A DNA stretch of 20,634 nucleotides, from contig BRYA01001533.1 of the NCBI GenBank assembly GCA_030267965.1, positions 3,690-24,323 of the forward strand, read 5' to 3'. This stretch comes from Triparma columacea (taxonomy: Eukaryota; Sar; Bolidophyceae; Parmales; Triparmaceae). Of the stretch, positions 1 through 20,634 are shown in pieces. Made by a program: the position numbers and the translations under genes. Under the pieces are notes generated by a model that worked only from the letters and a program-made list of their open reading frames with translations, was not told where the DNA came from and searched no databases. Every line of letters begins with the position of its first letter. Position 1 is the stretch's first letter.

Positions 1-84
1 CCCCCCCCCCTCTCTCTCTTAACCCCCCCCCCCCCCCCCCTTCCGCTTCCGCGACTCGCTTCGCTCGTCGCCCACTTCGCCCAG
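1..84 (+). other. 3' end of an intron of the exonuclease gene, with introner-like sequence
   Basis: Poly-C and CT-rich sequence with a CTTAAC branch-like site, then GCGAC, core TCGCTTCGCTC, GTCGCCCAC, and the acceptor CCCAG at 80-84. About 30 nt (46-75) match the PI4-kinase introns exactly, in the same sense relative to transcription. The donor is outside the window, so the intron call rests on the acceptor, the poly-C tract and this shared element. The frame is open through it, so read-through coding cannot be excluded. Confidence 0.6.
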
Positions 85-1526
85 GCTGAGAAGAAGAAGA
101 GGAAGAAGGATTCCGCCCCAGTCTCTCCCCCCGCCATCCACTCCGCCCCGACCTCCTCCAAGACGAAGAAGCAGAAGACCGCCCCTTCCCTCAACCCGAT
201 GTTCTCCTCATCTGCCTTCCCCGTGTCCTCCTTCATCCCCCCAGCCCCCCCCACCCCTCCTCCCCAAGCGTCGACGACCGGAAAGGTACCCCCTACCTCC
301 CCTCTAAGCCCCGCAACTACTCCAACCAAGGGATCCTTAATATCAGCCTCCCCCGGCTCCCGCCCCATCCCAGTGCCAGAGAAGGCCACTACGGAAACAG
401 CGAAGATGTGGGACGGCATGGTCAAAAAGACCAGGGTGCACCCGAGATTCAAGGGGGCGGTACAGCAGCTCATCAGCAACGAGGAGAACCCGGAGTGGTT
501 CAGAACGGCCGAGTACAAAAAACTTGTAGAGGTGAGAAAGAACTGGTAATGGAAACATACATACATACATGCACTTATTCCAATCACCAAATACTAACAC
601 CCCCCCAGTCCGACCCCCGTCGCAACGCCAAGAAGCTGCCCCGTCTTCTCGCCATGGATTGTGAGATGGTCGAGACCAAGGACCCGTTAACCGGTCGCAT
701 CGACGCCAAGGCCCTCGCCCGTCTCTCCGTAATCGACGGCTCCAACCCCTCCAACGTTCTCATCGACACCCTCGTCAAACCGTACTGGCCAGTCACGGAC
801 TATAGGACGAGAATCAACGGGATCACGAAGGAGAGCCTACAGGGGTGCGAGTTCACCCTCCGCCACGCGCAGAAGTTCATGTCAGACCTCTGCTCCTCCG
901 AGACCGTAATCGCCGGACACGCCGTACACAACGATCTCATCTCACTGAAGATGAGACACTTCAGAGTCGTAGACTCAGCGTTCCTGTACACGACGGTCGA
1001 CGGGGTTGAGGCGGGACCACCGAGCTTGAAGGACGCGGCGAAGTGCGTGTTAGGTATCGATATGCCAGCGAGCCACGATAGTGTTAACGACGCTAGACAG
1101 AGTATGGCACTCCTCCAGGAGTACCTGGACGCAGGGGAAATTCAGAAACCAGAGTGGAAAATCGTTAGGAGTAAGAAGGTAAAGGGGGGTACGTATGACC
1201 CGGATGGTACTAATGGGTCGGACAGCCTTTTCGTACACCGTATACCCATTGGTACGGGGGACGGTAAAATCAGGACCATGATGATCAACCACACCAGCAT
1301 ACAACCATCTAAAATGGGGGAACTCGTTCAAGGGACTGACGGAGGGTACGGTAAGTGTCTGGTGTTTTACGACGATGAGAAAAGTGCGAGTCTGGCGTTC
1401 GAGAAACTTAAGGGGAAAACGGAAAAGGATAAGGGGGGGAGAGAACAGAAGAGGGTCTTTTGGAAGAGTGGGGAGTACGTTTTTGTGAGACGGAATGGGG
1501 GGAGGAAAGGGAAAAAGAAAGAGTAA
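85..1526 (+). CDS. DEDDh 3'-5' RNA exonuclease (REXO/SDN type) with C-terminal RRM-like domain, 5' partial
   Basis: Exons 85-531 and 609-1526; the 5' end lies outside the window. The 77-nt intron (GTGAGA...CCCCAG) joins LVE to SDPRRN without shifting frame. The N-terminus is basic with a KKKRKK stretch (nuclear or nucleolar signal), followed by a conserved SDN-like block (VHPRFKGAVQQL...EYKKLVE). The nuclease domain shows all DEDDh residues: DCEMVET (D, E), HAVHNDL (D), and HDSVNDAR (H, D). The C-terminal part (SLFVHRIPIG ... KCLVFYDDEKSASLAFEKL) looks like an RRM. Family members trim 3' ends of small RNAs, rRNA or snRNA (plant SDN1-3, animal REXO5). Which RNA is trimmed here cannot be told. 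The tail is Lys/Arg-rich and ends at TAA. An acceptor CCCAG at 80-84 makes 85 the likely exon boundary, but the reading frame is also open to base 1. Confidence 0.88.
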
Positions 1527-1829
1527 GGGGGCGGGGAGGGGGGGGGAGGGAGAGAAAGAGTGAGAGAGAGAGAGTGAGAGAGAGAGACAGAGAGAGGAAT
1601 AAGCAATCGGTTGTGTTTTAGAAGGATTGGACGTGTGTTTTTCTGTATTCGGGGTATGCCAAGACTATTTAACCACCCGCCACCGCTCCGCTCAGCGCTT
1701 ATATCGTGCGATGAAGGCCTTCAGATCCATTCCCCTGTTGAAAAAAAGGGGGGCAATAAATTGGTCAAATATATTTATGCAACAATAAATAAGGTTTAGA
1801 TGCTTCAACTCTGCTTAAGATGAATCAAC
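1527..1829. other. Convergent intergenic spacer with GA-rich microsatellite
   Basis: This lies between the exonuclease stop and the zinc-finger gene stop. Positions 1527-1600 are G-rich then (GA)n. Two AATAAA hexamers on the + strand sit at 1755-1760 and 1784-1789. A small ORF at 1611-1799 has no recognisable features. No other gene is seen. Confidence 0.6.
1755..1789 (+). terminator. Possible polyadenylation signals of the exonuclease gene
   Basis: Two AATAAA hexamers in AU-rich sequence, 229 and 258 nt after the stop codon. Poly(A) signals are loosely conserved in algae, so this is only a candidate. Confidence 0.3.
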
Positions 1830-3026
1830 TTATACGTGATGCTTGGAAATGTGTCTCTTGATACTGCCTCTCTCCTTCGCCTTATATTCACATCCTTCTT
1901 GCGGGCATGTATGCCATGTTACGCCAATGTCGTGAACATTAGCAAGGTGTAACTTGATGCTGCCTCTCAGCTTCGCCTTATGTGCACACCCTTCTTGTGG
2001 GCATGTATGCCAAGTTACGCCAATATCGTGAACATTAGCAAGGTGTAACTTGATGCTGCCTCTCAGCTTCGCCTTATGTGCACACCCTTCTTGTGGGCAT
2101 GTATGCCAAGTTACGCCAATATCGTGAAAACTAGCAAGGTGTGACTTGAGGGTGCCTCTATCCTTCGCCTTATATTCACACCCTTCCTGTGAGCATGTAT
2201 GCCAGGTTACGCCAATATCGTGAATACGAGAAAGGTGGGTCTTGATGCTGCCTCTCTGCTTCGTCTTATATTCACACCCTTCTTGCGGACATGTATGCCA
2301 AGTTACGCCAATATCGTGAATATTAGCAAGGTGCTTCTTGATATCGAATCTCTGCTTTGCCTTATATTCACACCCATCTTGTGGGCATGTATGCCATGTT
2401 ACGCCAATATCATGTATATGAGCAAGGTGTAACTTGATGTGGGCTCTCTCCTTCGCCTTATATTCACACCCTTCTTGTGGGCATGTGTACCACTTTACGC
2501 TAATATCGTGAATATTAGCAAGGTGCTTCATGAGGTTGGATCTCTCCTTCGCCTTATATTCACACCCTTCTTGCGGGCAAGAATGCCATACTGTGCTAAC
2601 ACCGTTCTGAGGCTTCTTTTCGTACCCAGGATCGTATTCATCATCATCATTTTCACCACCATTACCATCACCATCCCAAGATTCATCGTCCTCGTCATAG
2701 TCTTCTTCACCATTGCGATAATTGTATTCCATACTCGTTTCTCTCTTTCTCTCCTTGCTCCTGCTGTTTGTCTTCCCTTCAGCAATAACCTCCTCATCAC
2801 ATGGTTGGCATACAAGCAATTCATGCTGTACCACATCCTCCTCTTTAACAAATACCTCGCTTCTCGATCCTCCGACACTACCTGCTGTCGATTCACCCTT
2901 ATTCCCTCCTTGAAACTCAGGAAGGATACCGGGTCCATCTTCTTCCACCTTGCATCCTTCTATTTTGGGTGCGCGTGTGTTAACGTGCGAGCTGACATCT
3001 AGACAATGCGCCGGTGCGGTCGACAT
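1830..3026 (-). CDS. C2H2 zinc-finger protein with eight tandem 32-residue fingers
   Basis: Intronless, 398 aa from the ATG at 3024-3026. An in-frame ATG at 3074 would add 16 residues; the inner one starts a more usual MSTAPAHC. The N-terminus (about 1-106) is unrecognised. Residues about 107-132 are strongly acidic. Residues 145-398 are eight units of 32 aa (the last 30), each with CX4C, X12, HX4H (for example CPQEGC...KHLANIH) and a linker near HDIGVTWHT. This spacing binds zinc in C2H2 fashion. Whether the protein binds DNA, RNA or protein is not visible. Similar arrays with HDIGVTW-like linkers are, to my knowledge, expanded in diatom-lineage algae. Two adjacent units are identical in DNA, which shows recent duplication. 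The N-terminal acidic block could be an activation region (inference). Confidence 0.82.
   Translation of the reverse strand: MSTAPAHCLDVSSHVNTRAPKIEGCKVEEDGPGILPEFQGGNKGESTAGSVGGSRSEVFVKEEDVVQHELLVCQPCDEEVIAEGKTNSRSKERKRETSMEYNYRNGEEDYDEDDESWDGDGNGGENDDDEYDPGYEKKPQNGVSTVWHSCPQEGCEYKAKERSNLMKHLANIHDISVKWYTCPQEGCEYKAKERAHIKLHLAHIHDIGVTWHTCPQDGCEYKAKQRFDIKKHLANIHDIGVTWHTCPQEGCEYKTKQRGSIKTHLSRIHDIGVTWHTCSQEGCEYKAKDRGTLKSHLASFHDIGVTWHTCPQEGCAHKAKLRGSIKLHLANVHDIGVTWHTCPQEGCAHKAKLRGSIKLHLANVHDIGVTWHTCPQEGCEYKAKERGSIKRHISKHHV
1833..2594 (-). repeat. Coding tandem repeat, 96-nt period, eight copies
   Basis: The zinc-finger array in DNA. Period is 96 nt (32 codons). The copies covering about 1930-2026 and 2026-2122 are base-for-base identical, while the others differ mainly at the four finger-tip codons and at silent sites. 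Confidence 0.9.
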
Positions 3027-5637: not shown

Positions 5638-5862
5638 GAGATGGGGGAGGGTATAAAGATAAGAGACGAAGTGTATTCGGTTTCGACAAATGAAAGTCGC
5701 TTTGATTTTTCTCGACCAAAGCATTGGACGCAACATTAGCCCCCACCCCAAACCCCTTCAGCGGTTCGCTTCGCTCACCGCAGAGATGGGGGAGGGTCTA
5801 AAGATAAGAGGCGAAGTGAATTCGGTTTCAACAAATGAGAGTCGCTTTGATTTCTCTCGACC
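5638..5862. repeat. 80-nt direct repeat, offset 145 nt
   Basis: Copies 5638-5717 and 5783-5862 align without gaps with six mismatches (74/80). They start with GAGATGGGGGAGGGT and end with TCTCGACC. The 65 nt between them contain the GCGGT/ACCGC hairpin. Confidence 0.9.
5761..5781 (+). repeat. Hairpin with core TCGCTTCGCTC
   Basis: Arms GCGGT (5761-5765) and ACCGC (5777-5781) enclose the 11-base core TCGCTTCGCTC. The same core is enclosed by GCGAC and GTCGC in the introns at the left edge and in the PI4-kinase gene. The stem pairing is kept while its bases differ. Confidence 0.7.
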
Positions 5863-6029: not shown

Positions 6030-9015
6030 TTAGCAATTGTTTGTAATTTTTCCATCCCCCCTCGTCATCTTCCCGAGTTCGTTAAGCAGCAGTAAATCCA
6101 CGAACCTGTGGAAGTACGTCCTCACGAGTTCCTCTTTCTTCTTCGTCCACCCAGCCCCGACGAATCCCTTGGGTGTTTCAAAGTGTGCTGCGCTCCTCCT
6201 GCTCCCGCTTAACGCCCTGCTCAGGTTGCTGCTCCCCGACCCCACCCCCGTCGTCGCCCCCGCGTTATTGAGCGCGCTGTAGCTCCGCGACTTCACCAGC
6301 TGAGGCTGAGCCACTCCCTGTCCTTCGCCCAAGTATCCCCCTGTCCCAACCTCCCCGTCGACAAAGGTGAGCGCCTTTGCGGCGCTTACGATCTCGTCCT
6401 CCTCGATAGACTGCCAACCAACATTCTCCCTCCCGAACCCTTCGGCCCATAAGCTGCCCTCCACTTGGAGGTTCTCCCCCTCCATGCTGCAGGATCTCGT
6501 GATCCCAAGCACAGTCGTCCTCTCCCCTGCTCCCCCGAGGTTCGCGAGCTCCGTGGCGCTCAGCGAGTTCCTGAGCTTCGCGGTGGAGTGGGCCAGGTAG
6601 ACGTCCTTGAGGACTCCGCAGCCTGTGGTTCGGACGGGGGACTCGAGGGAGAAGCCCGGCATGGAGGATTCGTCGGTGAAGGAACCGAAGAGGGGCTCTT
6701 TCACAGGGGAGGAGGGGCGCTTCGAGGCCCAAAATCCACCGGGGGAACGAGAGATGTCGGAATCGATAGAGTTGGTGCGCCGGCGGGAAGGGGGTGAGGG
6801 GGGGGGGATTTGGATGGAGGGGACGTTCGAGTGGGAAAGGATTGCGTCAGCCCAGATGATTGGGGAGGAGGATTTGGGGGGAGTGGAAGGGAGGGGGGGT
6901 GGGGAAGGGAGGGGGGGTGGGGAAGGGGAAGGGTCGTCGGAAAGGTCGGCAGGAGGTTCCCCAGACGGGAGCTCGGAACCGCTGAGACGGAGGATAGGCT
7001 CGTCGGAGGAGTCGGAGTCAGAGGACGTAGATAGGACAGAAGGCATGTTCTGGAGGTTGATACCCTTGCTTGGGGACAAGGGGGTTCTGGGCGCAGAGGA
7101 GGTGGAGATGGGCGCAGATGTTGAGGTCGAGCTGGTAGTGCTGGGCTGTTTGACGGAGAGCCTCGTCATGATAGCCTTGGAGGCGACGCGGTGCGAGAAC
7201 TTCTCGTTGTCGACCGCGTGGTAGCTCAGGTCCGCAGCGTTGAGTAGGATCTTTTCCAGCGTGCTGGGGATCTCCCCAAGGTCGTCGGTGCGACAGCACA
7301 TGTTGGCGATCTCGTAGAGGGAGAGGTTAGCTTGGACTCCCTTGATAAGGAGGTTGCAGGAGGCGCGGAAGACGTCGCAAGTGGCATCGTCAATGTTTAG
7401 GCGGTCCTTGAGGATCGACACGTCCTTCTCGACATCCAGGTTGCTGACGTACTGCCTCAGCTTCTTGCACAGTGGTTTCTTGACTTGTGGGTAGTCCAGC
7501 CAGCACCAGTCGCACCACGCCACGTCCGCCTTGTTCCTCAGGCAGTAACCGTGGTCGATGGGAACGAGGGACCAGGCGGAGCTGCCGTCGGAGCCGCGGC
7601 GACGCCGGGCAAGGAGGTTAGCAGCATTGCGGTCTGCATTCATTATACGGATGTCGAGGAGAGCAATCTTCTGGACCTCGTATGTGGAGATTACAGAGGG
7701 CGAAATGTCGTCCATTGTGCAGTCGGATTGGACGAAGGCCTGGAAGGATCCGAGCTTCATCGGTGTCTCCCTCATCCCCCCCCCCTGTACCTGCATCGGC
7801 GTAACAATGGAGTGCGTCCCCTTTGCTCCGCCCCCGCTCGCCACCGTGTCGTACCTGCCCCCGACGTTGAAGGCCCTGTGGCTCGCCTCTGCCAGCGTGG
7901 TCTCAGGAACGCCACTGAGGCCCCCATGGTCGAGCAGGTAGGCGGCGACCTCACGGTAGCAACCGGTTCCCGGGATGTGACCGGTGCGCATGGTGATGTC
8001 GGCGGAGGGGAGGAAGCCACGGGGGTTGTTGGTGGCGTAGGGCTCTTCGTCGGAGGGCTTGAAGACGGCGACGTTTTGCTTCGTGGGGGCTCGGAGGATA
8101 TAGGTTCCCCCTGAGCCGTCGAGGGTGGCGAGGGGCTTGAGGTTCATGGAGAAGGCACGGTCGGTCTGGGTGATGGTTTTGAGGAGGGATCGAGACGTGA
8201 GGGGGAGGAGGGAGGGGGTGACGGATATGGAGCAGCCGTCAGGGTTTGGAGGGAAGTGGATGTGGCGTGAGGTCGAGGAGAAAGACGCCTTGGGGGAATT
8301 GGGGCAGGAATTGGTGGGGGTCACTGTGGGCGACGAGCGAGTGTGGGCGACGAGCGAGTGTGGGCGACGAGCGAAGCGAGTTGTGGGCGACGAGCGAAGC
8401 GAGTCGCGGAAGGGGTGGGTGCGTTGTTGGGGTGCGTTAGTGGGATGGTAAGGTTTGTGCGTCGAGCGAGTCAGGTTCGTTGATGGTTGAAGGTTGGTGT
8501 AGTTGATGCAGCTCTTCTCACCTGATTGGTGAGGCACCGGGCGGCCGACAATGTCGAGCAGGAGGGTTGCTCCCGACTTGTACACGCCAACGTCATTCAG
8601 GGTGCGGTTGTTTTTGAGGGGCTGTTGGGAGGGCGACGAGCAAAGCGAGTCGCGGAAGGGGTGGGTGCGTTATTGGGGTGCGTTAGTGGGGTGGTTAGGT
8701 TTGTGCGTCGAGCGAGTGTCCTTGCTCGAGCGAGTGTCCTTGCTCGCAGCAGCGCTATGCCGGTCATTGTTCCTCAGCATGAAAACCCAAACTCACCTGT
8801 GAGGGCCCGTAGAAGAGACGCTGGCTTGCCGATGGAATTGATAGGATGCTCGACAGCCTGTCCTTGATGTCCTTGATGGTCGTCCACGGCTTGACGTGCA
8901 GGGCACGCTTGTGCCCGTGGTTGTCCTGCACGTCACGAACAAAAACACGGAACTCCTCGACTTCGTCATCCATGAAGGACATCTGATGGGGGCGCTTGCC
9001 TCCCGTCGACGCCAT
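6030..9015 (-). CDS. Ubiquitin-like-domain phosphatidylinositol 4-kinase, gamma (type II) class
   Basis: Three exons: 9015-8797, 8621-8522, 8323-6030; 870 aa after splicing. Residues about 15-100 form a ubiquitin-like domain (FRVFVRDV ... RLFYGPSQ joined to PLKNNRTLNDVGVYKSG ... LLLDIVG). The joint falls in the middle of the fold, which confirms the splice. Residues about 175-430 are a PI4K-gamma kinase domain: GSGGTYIL glycine-rich start, VAVFKPSDEEP with the ATP-binding Lys (about 195), NNPRG, YREVAAYLLDH, KLGSFQAFV, LLDIRIMNADRNAAN catalytic loop and VPIDHGYCL metal-binding Asp. The family makes PI4P or, in plants, phosphorylates proteins and binds ubiquitin-linked partners. The last roughly 400 residues are Ser/Pro-rich and probably disordered, with an in-frame tandem tract near 6890-6925. 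Both introns carry a repeated element. Confidence 0.9.
8324..8521 (-). repeat. PI4-kinase intron 2 carrying introner-like element
   Basis: 198-nt GT-AG intron (GTGAGA ... CCACAG). On the + strand 8385-8471 match 8631-8717 of intron 1 at 83/87 positions without gaps. Next to the 3' splice site, sense-strand units of the type ACTCGCTTCGCTCGTCGCCC, then shorter ACTCGCTCGTCGCCCACA units, are stacked, and the last provides the CAG acceptor. Length is a multiple of three and the frame is open, so retention would add 66 residues. Confidence 0.8.
8622..8796 (-). repeat. PI4-kinase intron 1 carrying the same element
   Basis: 175-nt GT-AG intron (GTGAGT ... CAACAG). It contains the 87-nt element (8631-8717), seven nt from the acceptor CAG. 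Upstream in the sense direction are two copies of an 18-nt unit (+ strand CGAGCGAGTGTCCTTGCT at 8709-8726 and 8727-8744). Confidence 0.85.
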
Positions 9016-17928: not shown

Positions 17929-20634
17929 ATGCTAAAAATGTGCTCGTGGTGGTTCCTGGTGCTAACGTGGGCGCATCTCTTAGTTTACAGCGTGATACAC
18001 GTCGAAGGAAGTATAACAAACTTGAGCGAACTGGAAGGCAACACTGCAATCAAGGAACTCAATTTGGGACAGACCTATTATTATTTTGGCCAGTCGCGTT
18101 GGTTCAGCGGCCCGCCATGCACGGTCAAGGGGGATTTAAAATCTCTCAATGGTTTGGTCCACTTGGAGAGTCTTAACCTGAATAACTGTTTTGACGTGAC
18201 AGGTAGCCTCTCGGACCTTGAGAGTCTTGTGAACTTGAAGAGATTAGAACTAAGGGGGCTAACCAGTGTGGTTGGATCTATAGAATCCCTAAAGAACATG
18301 AAAGCGCTGACGTCCCTTAATTTGGCCTACCTCTACCAAGCGGAAGGTACCCTATCATCCGTCAAGGATATGACAAATCTGAAATTCCTAAGTTTGAAGT
18401 ACCTTTATCGTGTGGGTGGCTCACTCACTTCGTTTGAAGACCTGGCGGGATTAGACTACCTAAACACTGCACACGTCGATCTTATAGATGGCTCCCTTTC
18501 CTCACTTTCTAATTTGACGGAATTGACCCATTTGCAAATGTATGGCAACAACTACGTGGATGGGACCTTATCCTCCATCAAAAGCATGACGAAATTGAGG
18601 TTCCTGGACTTGGGCAATCTCGTGCTGGTGGGTGGGACACTTAATTCCATCGAAAATGTGACGAAATTAACGTACCTAGACCTGTCACTGCTGAAGCATT
18701 TGGGTGGTTCGCTTTCGGCCGTATCAGACATGACTGGAATGACATTCTTAAATTTGTTCGGTGCGGAGGGTGTTGGTGGATCCTTGGCTTCTCTCGAGCG
18801 CTTGGTAAACTTAAAGACAATCTTCTTATACGGGCTGAAGCAATTGGGCGGTTCTGTCAAGGTAGTCGAGAACTTCCTTGATTTCGACACCCTTCTGGTA
18901 TCAGGAACGAGCGTCACGGGCAGACCCTCGGAGGATATCATATCTCGATGCAAGGATCCGGACGTCTACTGCATGTTCACCCCCGCACCCAAAATGTGCG
19001 GAGAGGGGGAAAGAATGGTCGGTTTAACGTGCGAGTCTTGTCCAAATTGCGGGGCAGATGGATCGTGCCTTCATGGGATGGATGAGAGTGATTATTTTTG
19101 TGAAAGGTCAGTAACGACGAAGAATGCAAAGGAGAAAGGGTGTCCTCACAAGTCTCTCACCCTCCTCCTCGTATCCCTCTCCTTCCTACTTACAATCATG
19201 GCAGCTGCTACACCGGCGATTTCAAGGTCGGGCAGACATGTACGGAGTGTTTTGCCGGAGATGCTACGGTCCTTCTATTTCCAGCCGTAATTCTCACAGG
19301 TTTTGCCTTCGTCGCCGCTGTTCTCTATCGCTTGTCCAAAAAGTACCCAGCGGTAGCAACTCAACTCAGGAATTGTACCTTCAACATAGAGAATCAAATT
19401 CGGGTCAAACAAGTTTCGACGTTCTTCCAAGTAATGGGCATTGTTGCGTCCCTCGGCATGCCTTTGCCGTCGTGGTTCAGGTTGTCCTTCGAAAACCTTA
19501 TTGTCTTCGTAACATGGCCATTCTCCTTCCAACCTGCGTGCATCGAGTTGATCGACGTTCGAACCAGCACTCGAGGGTTGCTGCTGTTCGTATTAACCAT
19601 GTGCTTCACTTATGGCCTCAGAAGGCTCTACAATATTAAGTTGTTGCGCCAATGTCTTCCGCTCTCACTCTTCAAGAATGCCCAAGTTGCCGCTGGTATT
19701 ATCTTCAGCGTTTCTTCGATTATGCTTCTAACTTCGACGCTGAGAACGTCAGAGCTGAAAGATGGAATCTTTCATCTCCAGGGCGACACTAATGCAGGTA
19801 AGTTGGACAAGGAGCTAAGCGATGAACAATGGAAGCGAGGGTCTTTTTCGCCCTTTAGTCGTCGCTTCGCTCATCACTTAGCTCATCGCTCATCACAGCC
19901 CTTATGGCGGAAATATTCTCGCTCGTCATGGAGACCTGTATGCAGGTGTGCTTTATGGTGACAGAAGCAACAATCATCCACTCCCAGCTCAAGAGTTGGG
20001 GACGACGGTACAAGGAGTTAGAGAAGTATCACCGGGAGGGAGACGAAGGAGTCAAAAGGAGGATGGAAACGGTAGAATACCAATTAGAGAACGAAATGTA
20101 TTTCATCGCGACATTTTGTCAGAACTACGTGCCCGCAAACGTAGACTTCGAGCGAAAGATTTTTGGGTTAAAGATCACGTCATTTCTAGTCTCTGAGATG
20201 ACAATTGCAGCTTCGGCTGCTGTCCATATGCGTGAGTACCAAGAGGATAGTGTGATAGTGTGAACATTCTTTGTGCCATTGACGACTAACCACGCCAAAA
20301 CACGACAACAGTTTCGTCGATACCAGCAAGATTTAGTCCGTTTCCAGTCCCAGACCTCGGCTCCATACCTGCCGTCACTGCTGGGATCCAAGTTGTACTT
20401 TTGAATATTATCTACGCAAGGTTTCTTAAGGTACTTCGGCAAAGACCCTACATAAGCGGTCGATTTTCCGACATTCGTGGGGATCCTTTGAACGATGCTG
20501 AGTCCTTCAGGTTGAGAGCAATCAGGTGAGGCAAGCGGGTGTGAAATGAGGGGAATAAGACAGGAGCGCATTCTTATCAAATGAAAGCCGTCATACTAAC
20601 TTGTACGTCCCAACAAAGTTTCGGCTTGACCATG
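17929..20634 (+). CDS. Leucine-rich-repeat multi-pass membrane receptor, 3' partial
   Basis: Exons 17929-19106, 19205-19797, 19899-20231, 20312-20525, 20619 to the right edge; every join keeps frame (phases 2, 1, 1, 2). Residues 1-26 are a signal peptide (WWFLVLTWAHLLVYSVIHVEG). After an irregular cap, residues 92-331 are ten LRRs of exactly 24 aa (GSLSSLSNLTELTHLQMYGN type), then a Cys-rich juxtamembrane block (CESCPNCGADGSC, FCE joined to SCYTGDFKVGQTCTEC), which recalls ephrin-receptor-like modules. A hydrophobic helix follows (ATVLLFPAVILTGFAFVAAVL), then several more (STFFQVMGIVASLGM, STRGLLLFVLTMCF, AAGIIFSVSSIMLL, TAGIQVVLLNIIYA). The VKQVSTFFQVMG part resembles the multi-pass module of large algal surface proteins. 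The ligand and signalling output are unknown, and the C-terminus is missing. Confidence 0.8.
19798..19898 (+). repeat. Hairpin-forming intron 2 of the LRR receptor gene
   Basis: 101-nt GT-AG intron (GTAAGT ... CACAG). Inverted repeat arms GAGCTAAGCGATGA (19812-19825) and TCATCACTTAGCTC (19871-19884) pair at 13 of 14 bases. Inside, GAAGCGA faces TCGCTTC. The core TCGCTTCGCTC occurs in the sense orientation near the acceptor, as in the PI4-kinase introns. Confidence 0.75.

Follow-up and report, generated by a model that had tools for sequence, protein, structure and literature searches.

An 87-nt element in two introns of a PI4-kinase-like gene

The stretch of DNA analysed here, referred to as the window, comprises 20,634 nucleotides (nt) of contig BRYA01001533.1 (positions 3,690 to 24,323, forward strand) of the Triparma columacea assembly GCA_030267965.1, and the subject of this report is an 87-nt element that occurs twice in it, in two introns of a gene encoding a PI4-kinase-like protein. 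Because the gene is located on the minus strand, it is the reverse complement of the element that is read in the gene's sense. The spliced product starts with MASTGGKRPHQ and carries a ubiquitin-like domain and a PI3/PI4-kinase domain. An earlier interpretation based on the letters alone (the sequence-only reading) had described a gapless match between 8385–8471 and 8631–8717 with 83 identical positions out of 87 (95%), and the repeat comparison of the window returned the same alignment, with a spacing of 246 nt between the copies. The placement of the copies within two introns of one gene was borne out as well. The gene finder, a small home-made hidden Markov model self-trained on the window and the fetched loci (donor consensus AG|GTGAG), predicted exactly the introns 8622–8796 (intron 1) and 8324–8521 (intron 2), with the exon 8522–8621 between them. 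As training on the same loci could make these calls circular, the junctions were tested by protein. Both junctions, ...FYGPSQ|PLKNN... and ...VPHQS|VTPTN..., are gap-free in the alignment with the best relative, TrRE_jg5096 of Triparma retinervis (97% identical), and with the next-best relative, a transcriptome-derived protein (86% identical). A stop arises if intron 1 is retained or exon 2 is skipped, while retention of intron 2 gives no stop.

The two introns are chimeric, each consisting of a 5′ head of its own and a 3′ part that belongs to a family found elsewhere in the genome. The genome searched was 37.85 Mb in size; below, its contigs are given C-numbers and the fetched loci L-numbers. 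Intron 1 resembles full-length introns of family A beyond the 87 nt (in tail-less bodies, for example, 88% over 105 nt with C734), the family sequence running from AGCGCTGCTGCG onwards behind 40 nt of the intron's own. In intron 2 the family sequence begins later, near CTCGACGCAC, after approximately 50 nt of own sequence. Compared with each other, the two window introns thus have only their 3′ parts in common, while the first 40–50 nt differ, and the pair by itself falls short of a strict both-ends definition of introners. The element contains a 22-nt tail core, CGACTCGCTTCGCTCGTCGCCC in the sense of the gene. The sequence-only reading had put both copies close to the 3′ splice site; this applies to the copy in intron 1, which ends 9 nt away, and not to that in intron 2, which is 61 nt away, the gap being occupied by further tail units. 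At the left edge of the window (1–84, plus strand), an intron end with an exact tail core lies ahead of an exonuclease-like gene, so that two genes of the window carry the family. A predicted intron at 19798–19898, the end of which has degenerate tail units (2 mismatches), is possibly an older member. The features are collected in Table 1.

Table 1. Exons, introns and family sequences identified in the window.
Feature	Position	Strand	Remarks
Intron 1, 175 nt	8622..8796	-	family A body and tail behind a GTGAGTTTGG head of about 40 nt
Intron 2, 198 nt	8324..8521	-	shared 3′ part and extra tail units behind a different 5′ head of about 50 nt
87-nt element, copy in intron 1	8631..8717	-	repeat comparison
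87-nt element, copy in intron 2	8385..8471	-	repeat comparison
3′ tail core of intron 1, one mismatch, hairpin-forming	8631..8652	-	
3′ tail core of intron 2, exact, hairpin-forming	8385..8406	-	
Second tail unit of intron 2, one mismatch	8362..8383	-	
CTAAC within CACTAACGCACC	8682..8686	-	candidate branch site of intron 1
Exon 1, start of ubiquitin-like domain	8797..9015	-	gene finder and relatives' proteins
Exon 2, not duplicated	8522..8621	-	gene finder, relatives' proteins and exon comparison
Exon 3 as predicted, PI3/PI4-kinase domain	6051..8323	-	reading frame extends to 6030
Third tail core of the family, exact	52..73	+	ends an intron of the exonuclease-like gene; intron start outside the window

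Copies of the element across the genome

With a limit of E ≤ 1e-3, the genome contained at least 50 matches to the 87-mer (40 out of 69 candidates scored). The core was found at 142 places with at most one mismatch, as compared to none for the reversed control. The similarity of the two 87-nt copies is thus not due to chance. Out of the 142 places, 100 were listed, and all 40 exact ones were examined; places with one mismatch were examined at the fetched loci only (17 in the first set, 19 in the second, and more that were uncounted). Thirty of the 40 exact cores lie in predicted introns in the sense orientation, eight in antisense, and two were unassigned, while introns make up 16% of the labelled bases (28,207 of 179,004, overlapping loci being counted twice). 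At 20 further loci all 19 cores (at most one mismatch) were in predicted introns, 14 in sense and five in antisense. Copies are thus concentrated in predicted introns, one of the criteria for introners in PMC9860276. The contrary outcome named by the sequence-only reading, hits distributed evenly over intergenic DNA and favouring neither introns nor one orientation, was tested for and not seen, with 38 of the 40 exact cores in predicted introns. When the neighbourhoods were read, different upstream bodies were found to precede the same core.

Introns similar from end to end

Six introns of family A, each on a different contig, agree at 18–20 of their first 20 positions and end in the same tail, while the exon flanks agree at only 1–9 positions out of 20. 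The global identity of these introns is 0.53–0.87, the low values being partly explained by internal repeats that differ in number. Similarity near both splice boundaries at different loci, another introner criterion of PMC9860276, is accordingly present in family A, and such end-to-end similar introns on different contigs support the introner-like assignment, made in the sequence-only reading, for the family. The family A head GTGAGACTGGTGAAAGATGGGG occurs at 11 places in the genome (control 0), and the most numerous head found, GTGAGAATGGACAAAA of family H, at 179 places compared to one in the control. Among 20 loci with an exact GTGAGAATGGACAAAA, a predicted intron starts at the head in 18 and 4 nt earlier in one, and one is uncalled; many introns with this head terminate in variants of the tail. 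The tail TCGCTTCGCTCNTCGCAG itself was found at 388 places with at most one mismatch (control 4), and the 12-mer CTAACGCAACCC, which contains a CTAAC branch-site motif, at 193 places as against seven for its reverse.

Before introns were counted, those containing N, those near or cut by a locus end and those already taken from an overlapping locus were dropped. The sense copies sit at the 3′ end of the intron and the antisense copies at the 5′ end. Of the 70 sense introns, 65 have the unit TTCGCTC within their last 80 nt and six within their first 80 nt; of the 15 antisense introns, 14 have its complement GAGCGAA within the first 80 nt and none within the last 80 nt. The 124 introns without a core (at three mismatches) display the same end biases, 25 versus 4 for the sense unit and 11 versus 2 for the complement. 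Introns without a core have a median length of 117 nt, compared to 182 nt for the family introns and 206 nt for the antisense ones. Two introns with an antisense core at the 5′ end, C226:23359-23485 (L086) and C482:34777-34874 (L036), have bodies that are 86% alike over 65 nt, which suggests that copying has extended to an intron with an antisense core. Another antisense-core intron, C775:43229-43548 (L066), contains six tandem copies of a unit beginning with GCTCGTATCCAAGCCCCCCTT.

The tail is able to form a hairpin of five pairs, which is common to different intron bodies. Among 45 distinct tails, 17 cells with pair changes on both sides were counted, as compared to 5.1 ± 1.7 in shuffles, none of 500 of which reached 17, a figure inflated by the kinship among the copies; slid versions of the hairpin gave at most four such cells. 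The support comes mainly from two of the five pairs (GCGAC/GTCGC, GCGGC/GCCGC, GCGGT/ACCGC, GCGAT/ATCGC), and the number of pairs with a compensatory change, three, is not above that of the shuffles (2.3; 169 of 500 reach three). Whole introns did not fold clearly more stably than others: in mononucleotide shuffles the mean z was −0.45 for 35 sense introns and −0.30 for 35 other introns, the sample being the first 35 of each class within 60–250 nt.

Joints like those of the window introns were found behind GTGAGAAT heads in C49, C547 and C283:54723. A shared mid-body occurs at 13 places, and loss or replacement is commoner on its 5′ side than on its 3′ side, although these numbers are small. 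Truncation at the 5′ end in the manner of a short interspersed nuclear element was considered and abandoned: a ladder of 5′ break points is suggestive, but the measure halts at internal tandem repeats and the counts (tail kept in 12 of the 13 mid-bodies, head in eight) are too few.

Splicing of copies in other genes

An ABC1-type kinase gene on C469 contains five core-bearing introns (at most three mismatches). Its predicted protein and a protein on a contig of 2470 nt are identical in 617 out of 617 residues. The unspliced stretch needs 2922 nt and does not fit on this contig, which therefore represents either a spliced transcript or a copy without introns. In the genome itself, the near-identical matches to the protein are the separate C469 exons only; its best named relative is from T. 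verrucosa (75%), with no T. retinervis among the 120 matches listed. The ABC1 domain is unbroken across three core-bearing introns. Similarly, the cyclic-nucleotide and kinase domains of a PKG gene are continuous across three antisense-core introns, a dual-specificity phosphatase (DSPc) domain across two core-bearing introns and a PfkB domain across one. Splicing of the copies, which is also among the introner criteria of PMC9860276, was thus found in the window and ABC1 genes, with continuous domains in the PKG, DSPc and PfkB genes; at loci beyond these five it is a gene-finder prediction.

Clustering of copies within genes

Among the 100 listed places, 34 pairs of cores lie 150–3000 base pairs (bp) apart, pairs closer than 150 bp being omitted, while 0.75 would be expected at random. 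In each of these 34 pairs both cores lie on the same strand, and so they do in all 20 adjacent pairs, which are distributed over 12 contigs. Given the sense bias (30 of 38), same-strand pairs are already likely within a gene (approximately two in three), which weakens the strand result and leaves the clustering unaffected. The sequence-only reading had pointed out that the exon between the introns was not copied, which argued against tandem duplication; indeed, no duplicated exons were found at the window locus, and neither there nor at the C368, C750 and C496 loci was there an exon–exon match longer than 35 nt.

Body similarity was compared for 243 predicted introns, those shorter than 40 nt being omitted. 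Similar bodies were seen in 35 of the 389 pairs from the same neighbourhood and strand versus 430 of the 29,014 other pairs, and for 28 of the 88 introns that have a similar body elsewhere, the best match was in the same neighbourhood. One gene of C750 contains two interleaved intron families, and C368 and C283 each contain more than one set of similar introns. The 306-nt predicted intron C496:12043-12348 (L038) has an internal CAG|GTGAGG junction and may consist of two introners joined end to end or contain a recursive splice site.

Absence of the introns from paralogues

The continuity of paralogues was read off match tables. The closest ABC1 comparison, C112 (51% identical), is uninterrupted at three positions of core-bearing introns, one of which is a full-length family A intron. 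The paralogues C311 and C295 are likewise uninterrupted, as is C118 with one stop (36–40% identical). The positions of the antisense-type introns of the PKG gene, at residues 344, 569 and 781, are crossed without interruption by at least 8, 10 and 15 paralogous stretches, respectively, in matches whose lengths would not accommodate an intron; with identities of 24–50% these are old paralogues. The paralogues of these two genes, ABC1 and PKG, lend indirect support to intron gain, which the family may have brought about.

Other features of the window

Two further repeats were observed in the window. A repeat with a 96-nt period at 1750–2625 codes, on the minus strand, for a zinc-finger-like array, and an 80-nt direct repeat (5638–5717 and 5783–5862, 93% alike) lies outside any gene-finder call.

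Origin and spread of the family

The family is located in predicted introns, is spliced in the tested cases and contains introns that are similar from end to end and share tails; it forms local same-strand clusters and is absent from the tested paralogues. The 87-nt repeat is probably the 3′ part of an introner-type family of mobile introns in the Triparma genome. An intact member would be a complete spliceosomal intron with a 5′ splice site in a family-specific head, a variable body, candidate branch sites of the CTAAC type and the short tail hairpin just before the AG.

As to how such introns might spread, copying through RNA by reverse splicing is the route that we tentatively prefer, while granting that it could well be wrong. 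An excised intron would reverse-splice into a transcript, often that of its own gene, the transcript would be reverse-transcribed, and the complementary DNA (cDNA) would recombine back into the genome. Incomplete copying or template switching would leave chimeras with their own 5′ head and a copied 3′ part, as in the window. This route would explain why the boundaries coincide exactly with splice sites, why duplications are generally lacking, why the clusters are local and confined to one strand, and how 3′ halves are exchanged. It does not account for the antisense copies, for which a second process would be needed. A broader proposal can be put forward only as a speculation: Triparma may harbour an RNA-copied superfamily of introners that multiplies mainly within the gene it already occupies, by reverse splicing and cDNA recombination, with partial copying swapping the 3′ halves and the conserved 3′ hairpin serving as a handle, and a sizeable part of the introns may descend from a few mobile introns.

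Several observations weigh against an introner family or against its copying through RNA. The paralogues, being 24–51% identical, could have lost the introns or be retrocopies, and those ABC1 and PKG introns that have no core (at most three mismatches) are likewise absent from the paralogues where these are covered. In C229 and C547 a family A body is preceded by other intron sequence, and GTGAG is missing at the head of an antisense family A body in C682, arrangements that are expected if some copies entered existing introns. Anchoring at the 3′ end is weak, as judged from the retained tails and heads of the 13 mid-bodies. In nine of the 30 exact sense calls the donor is neither GTGAG nor GTAAG, and two of the eight antisense calls are doubtful, one being a predicted intron of 33 nt and the other lying at a contig end. 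Reverse splicing alone does not yield the antisense copies, which make up eight of the 38 exact intronic ones. Target-site duplications (TSDs) show no general excess, since flank matches of at least 4 nt were found in five of the 70 sense introns with 3.97 expected; matches of at least 6 nt occurred in two of the 70, however, with 0.22 expected. Rare TSDs are therefore possible. Such duplication-like flanks, of the kind that insertion of DNA would produce, are present at C240:59800-59938 (L050, 7 nt) and C368:15494-15696 (L056, 6 nt), and GGTAG was seen by eye on both sides of the copy from C73:23012 onward (L076).

These flanks bring in the strongest competitor, which we regard as unlikely and nevertheless worth keeping in mind: a DNA-type introner, that is, a non-autonomous DNA transposon, possibly with a Helitron-like hairpin 3′ end, that enters exons in either orientation and is then removed by splicing, its clusters being due to local hopping. 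It would fit the antisense copies with the core at the intron 5′ end, the hairpin shared by different bodies and the few long flank matches, and TSDs, terminal inverted repeats (TIRs) or both occur in 59.2% of the 130 introner families with determinable features, according to the text of PMC9860276. It fits poorly with the flank matches of at least 4 nt, and hopping would mix strands, whereas all close pairs are on the same strand. The Helitron_like_N domain (PF14214) had no match in the genome, nor in 14 control genomes, which makes this control uninformative. Helitrons have a short conserved 3′ end with a hairpin, variable bodies and no TSD, terminate in CTRR and insert at A^T. The family is like them in its conserved hairpin 3′ end, variable bodies and general lack of TSDs; unlike them, it ends at the AG splice site after the tail rather than in CTRR, and follows AG (67 of 80 sense cases) rather than inserting at A^T.

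According to a second alternative, an ordinary short repeat or transposable element was inserted near the ends of old introns and created no introns. The unrelated 5′ parts of the two window introns, the family A bodies behind other intron sequence in C229, C547 and C283:54723 and the greater length of the antisense introns would all be expected from it. It accounts for the chimeras and not for whole-intron families that are alike from GT to AG at different loci, nor for the uninterrupted paralogues, and the copies are found at the intron ends rather than throughout; we therefore consider it improbable. Slightly less probable still is the homogenisation of the introns of one gene by gene conversion or template switching, without any new introns. 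The excess of similar bodies within neighbourhoods and the chimeric heads and tails are in line with it, while families that extend across contigs and the absence of the introns from tested paralogues are left unexplained; such homogenisation may well be at work alongside. If gene segments had been duplicated in tandem, intron and exon together, similar introns would lie in the same gene, but this explanation is refuted at the four loci tested (window, C368, C750 and C496) by the lack of longer exon matches, as well as by the interleaved families of C750, and has hardly any probability left. A viral origin was also rejected: the two matches of a 20-nt core in IMG/VR (L088 and L089) are in sequences that appear phage-like by eye from their reading frames, judged without a family search, and nothing intron-like was found there.

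Comparison with known systems

The origin of spliceosomal introns is a long-standing question. The text of PMC9860276 proposes that introners are a major source of introns that is still active, and describes a debate on whether particular families move as DNA or RNA. With the present family, the Parmales, which are the sister group of diatoms, would join the introner-bearing lineages, and the local same-strand copies of the family, found without exon duplication at the checked loci, make the RNA route directly testable. A full-text search of the open-licence literature for introner together with Parmales or Triparma found no paper, and the word intron is absent from the main text of the Parmales genome paper (PMC10328945). 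Triparma, Parma and Bolido do not appear in the main text of PMC9860276; as 520 aquatic partial genomes were screened there, a Parmales genome may be in its supplementary tables.

Introners of Micromonas, Aureococcus, Florenciella and others, as described in the main text of Gozashti et al. 2022 (PMC9860276), resemble the Triparma family in occurring at many loci with similarity that reaches both splice sites, in forming several families per genome and in having an aquatic host, and the search of those authors allows both orientations. The Triparma family differs from them in having no general TSD, a single hairpin-forming 3′ tail on different bodies and strong local same-strand clusters. Ascomycete introners are described in the same text as being without TSDs and TIRs. 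Fungal introner-like elements, in the parts of PMC4457414 and PMC3879977 that deal with them, likewise exceed ordinary introns in length, as the family introns do here, and are said to degenerate over time; a conserved secondary structure is reported for them, whereas in Triparma only the 3′ tail hairpin is supported. In Oikopleura, four near-identical intron pairs among approximately 75,000 introns, each within one gene, led to the suggestion of reverse splicing in the Discussion of PMC3879977. The Triparma introns share with these pairs the near-identity within one gene, but here it is far more frequent, with 34 close pairs among 100 listed core copies, and the families also extend between loci.

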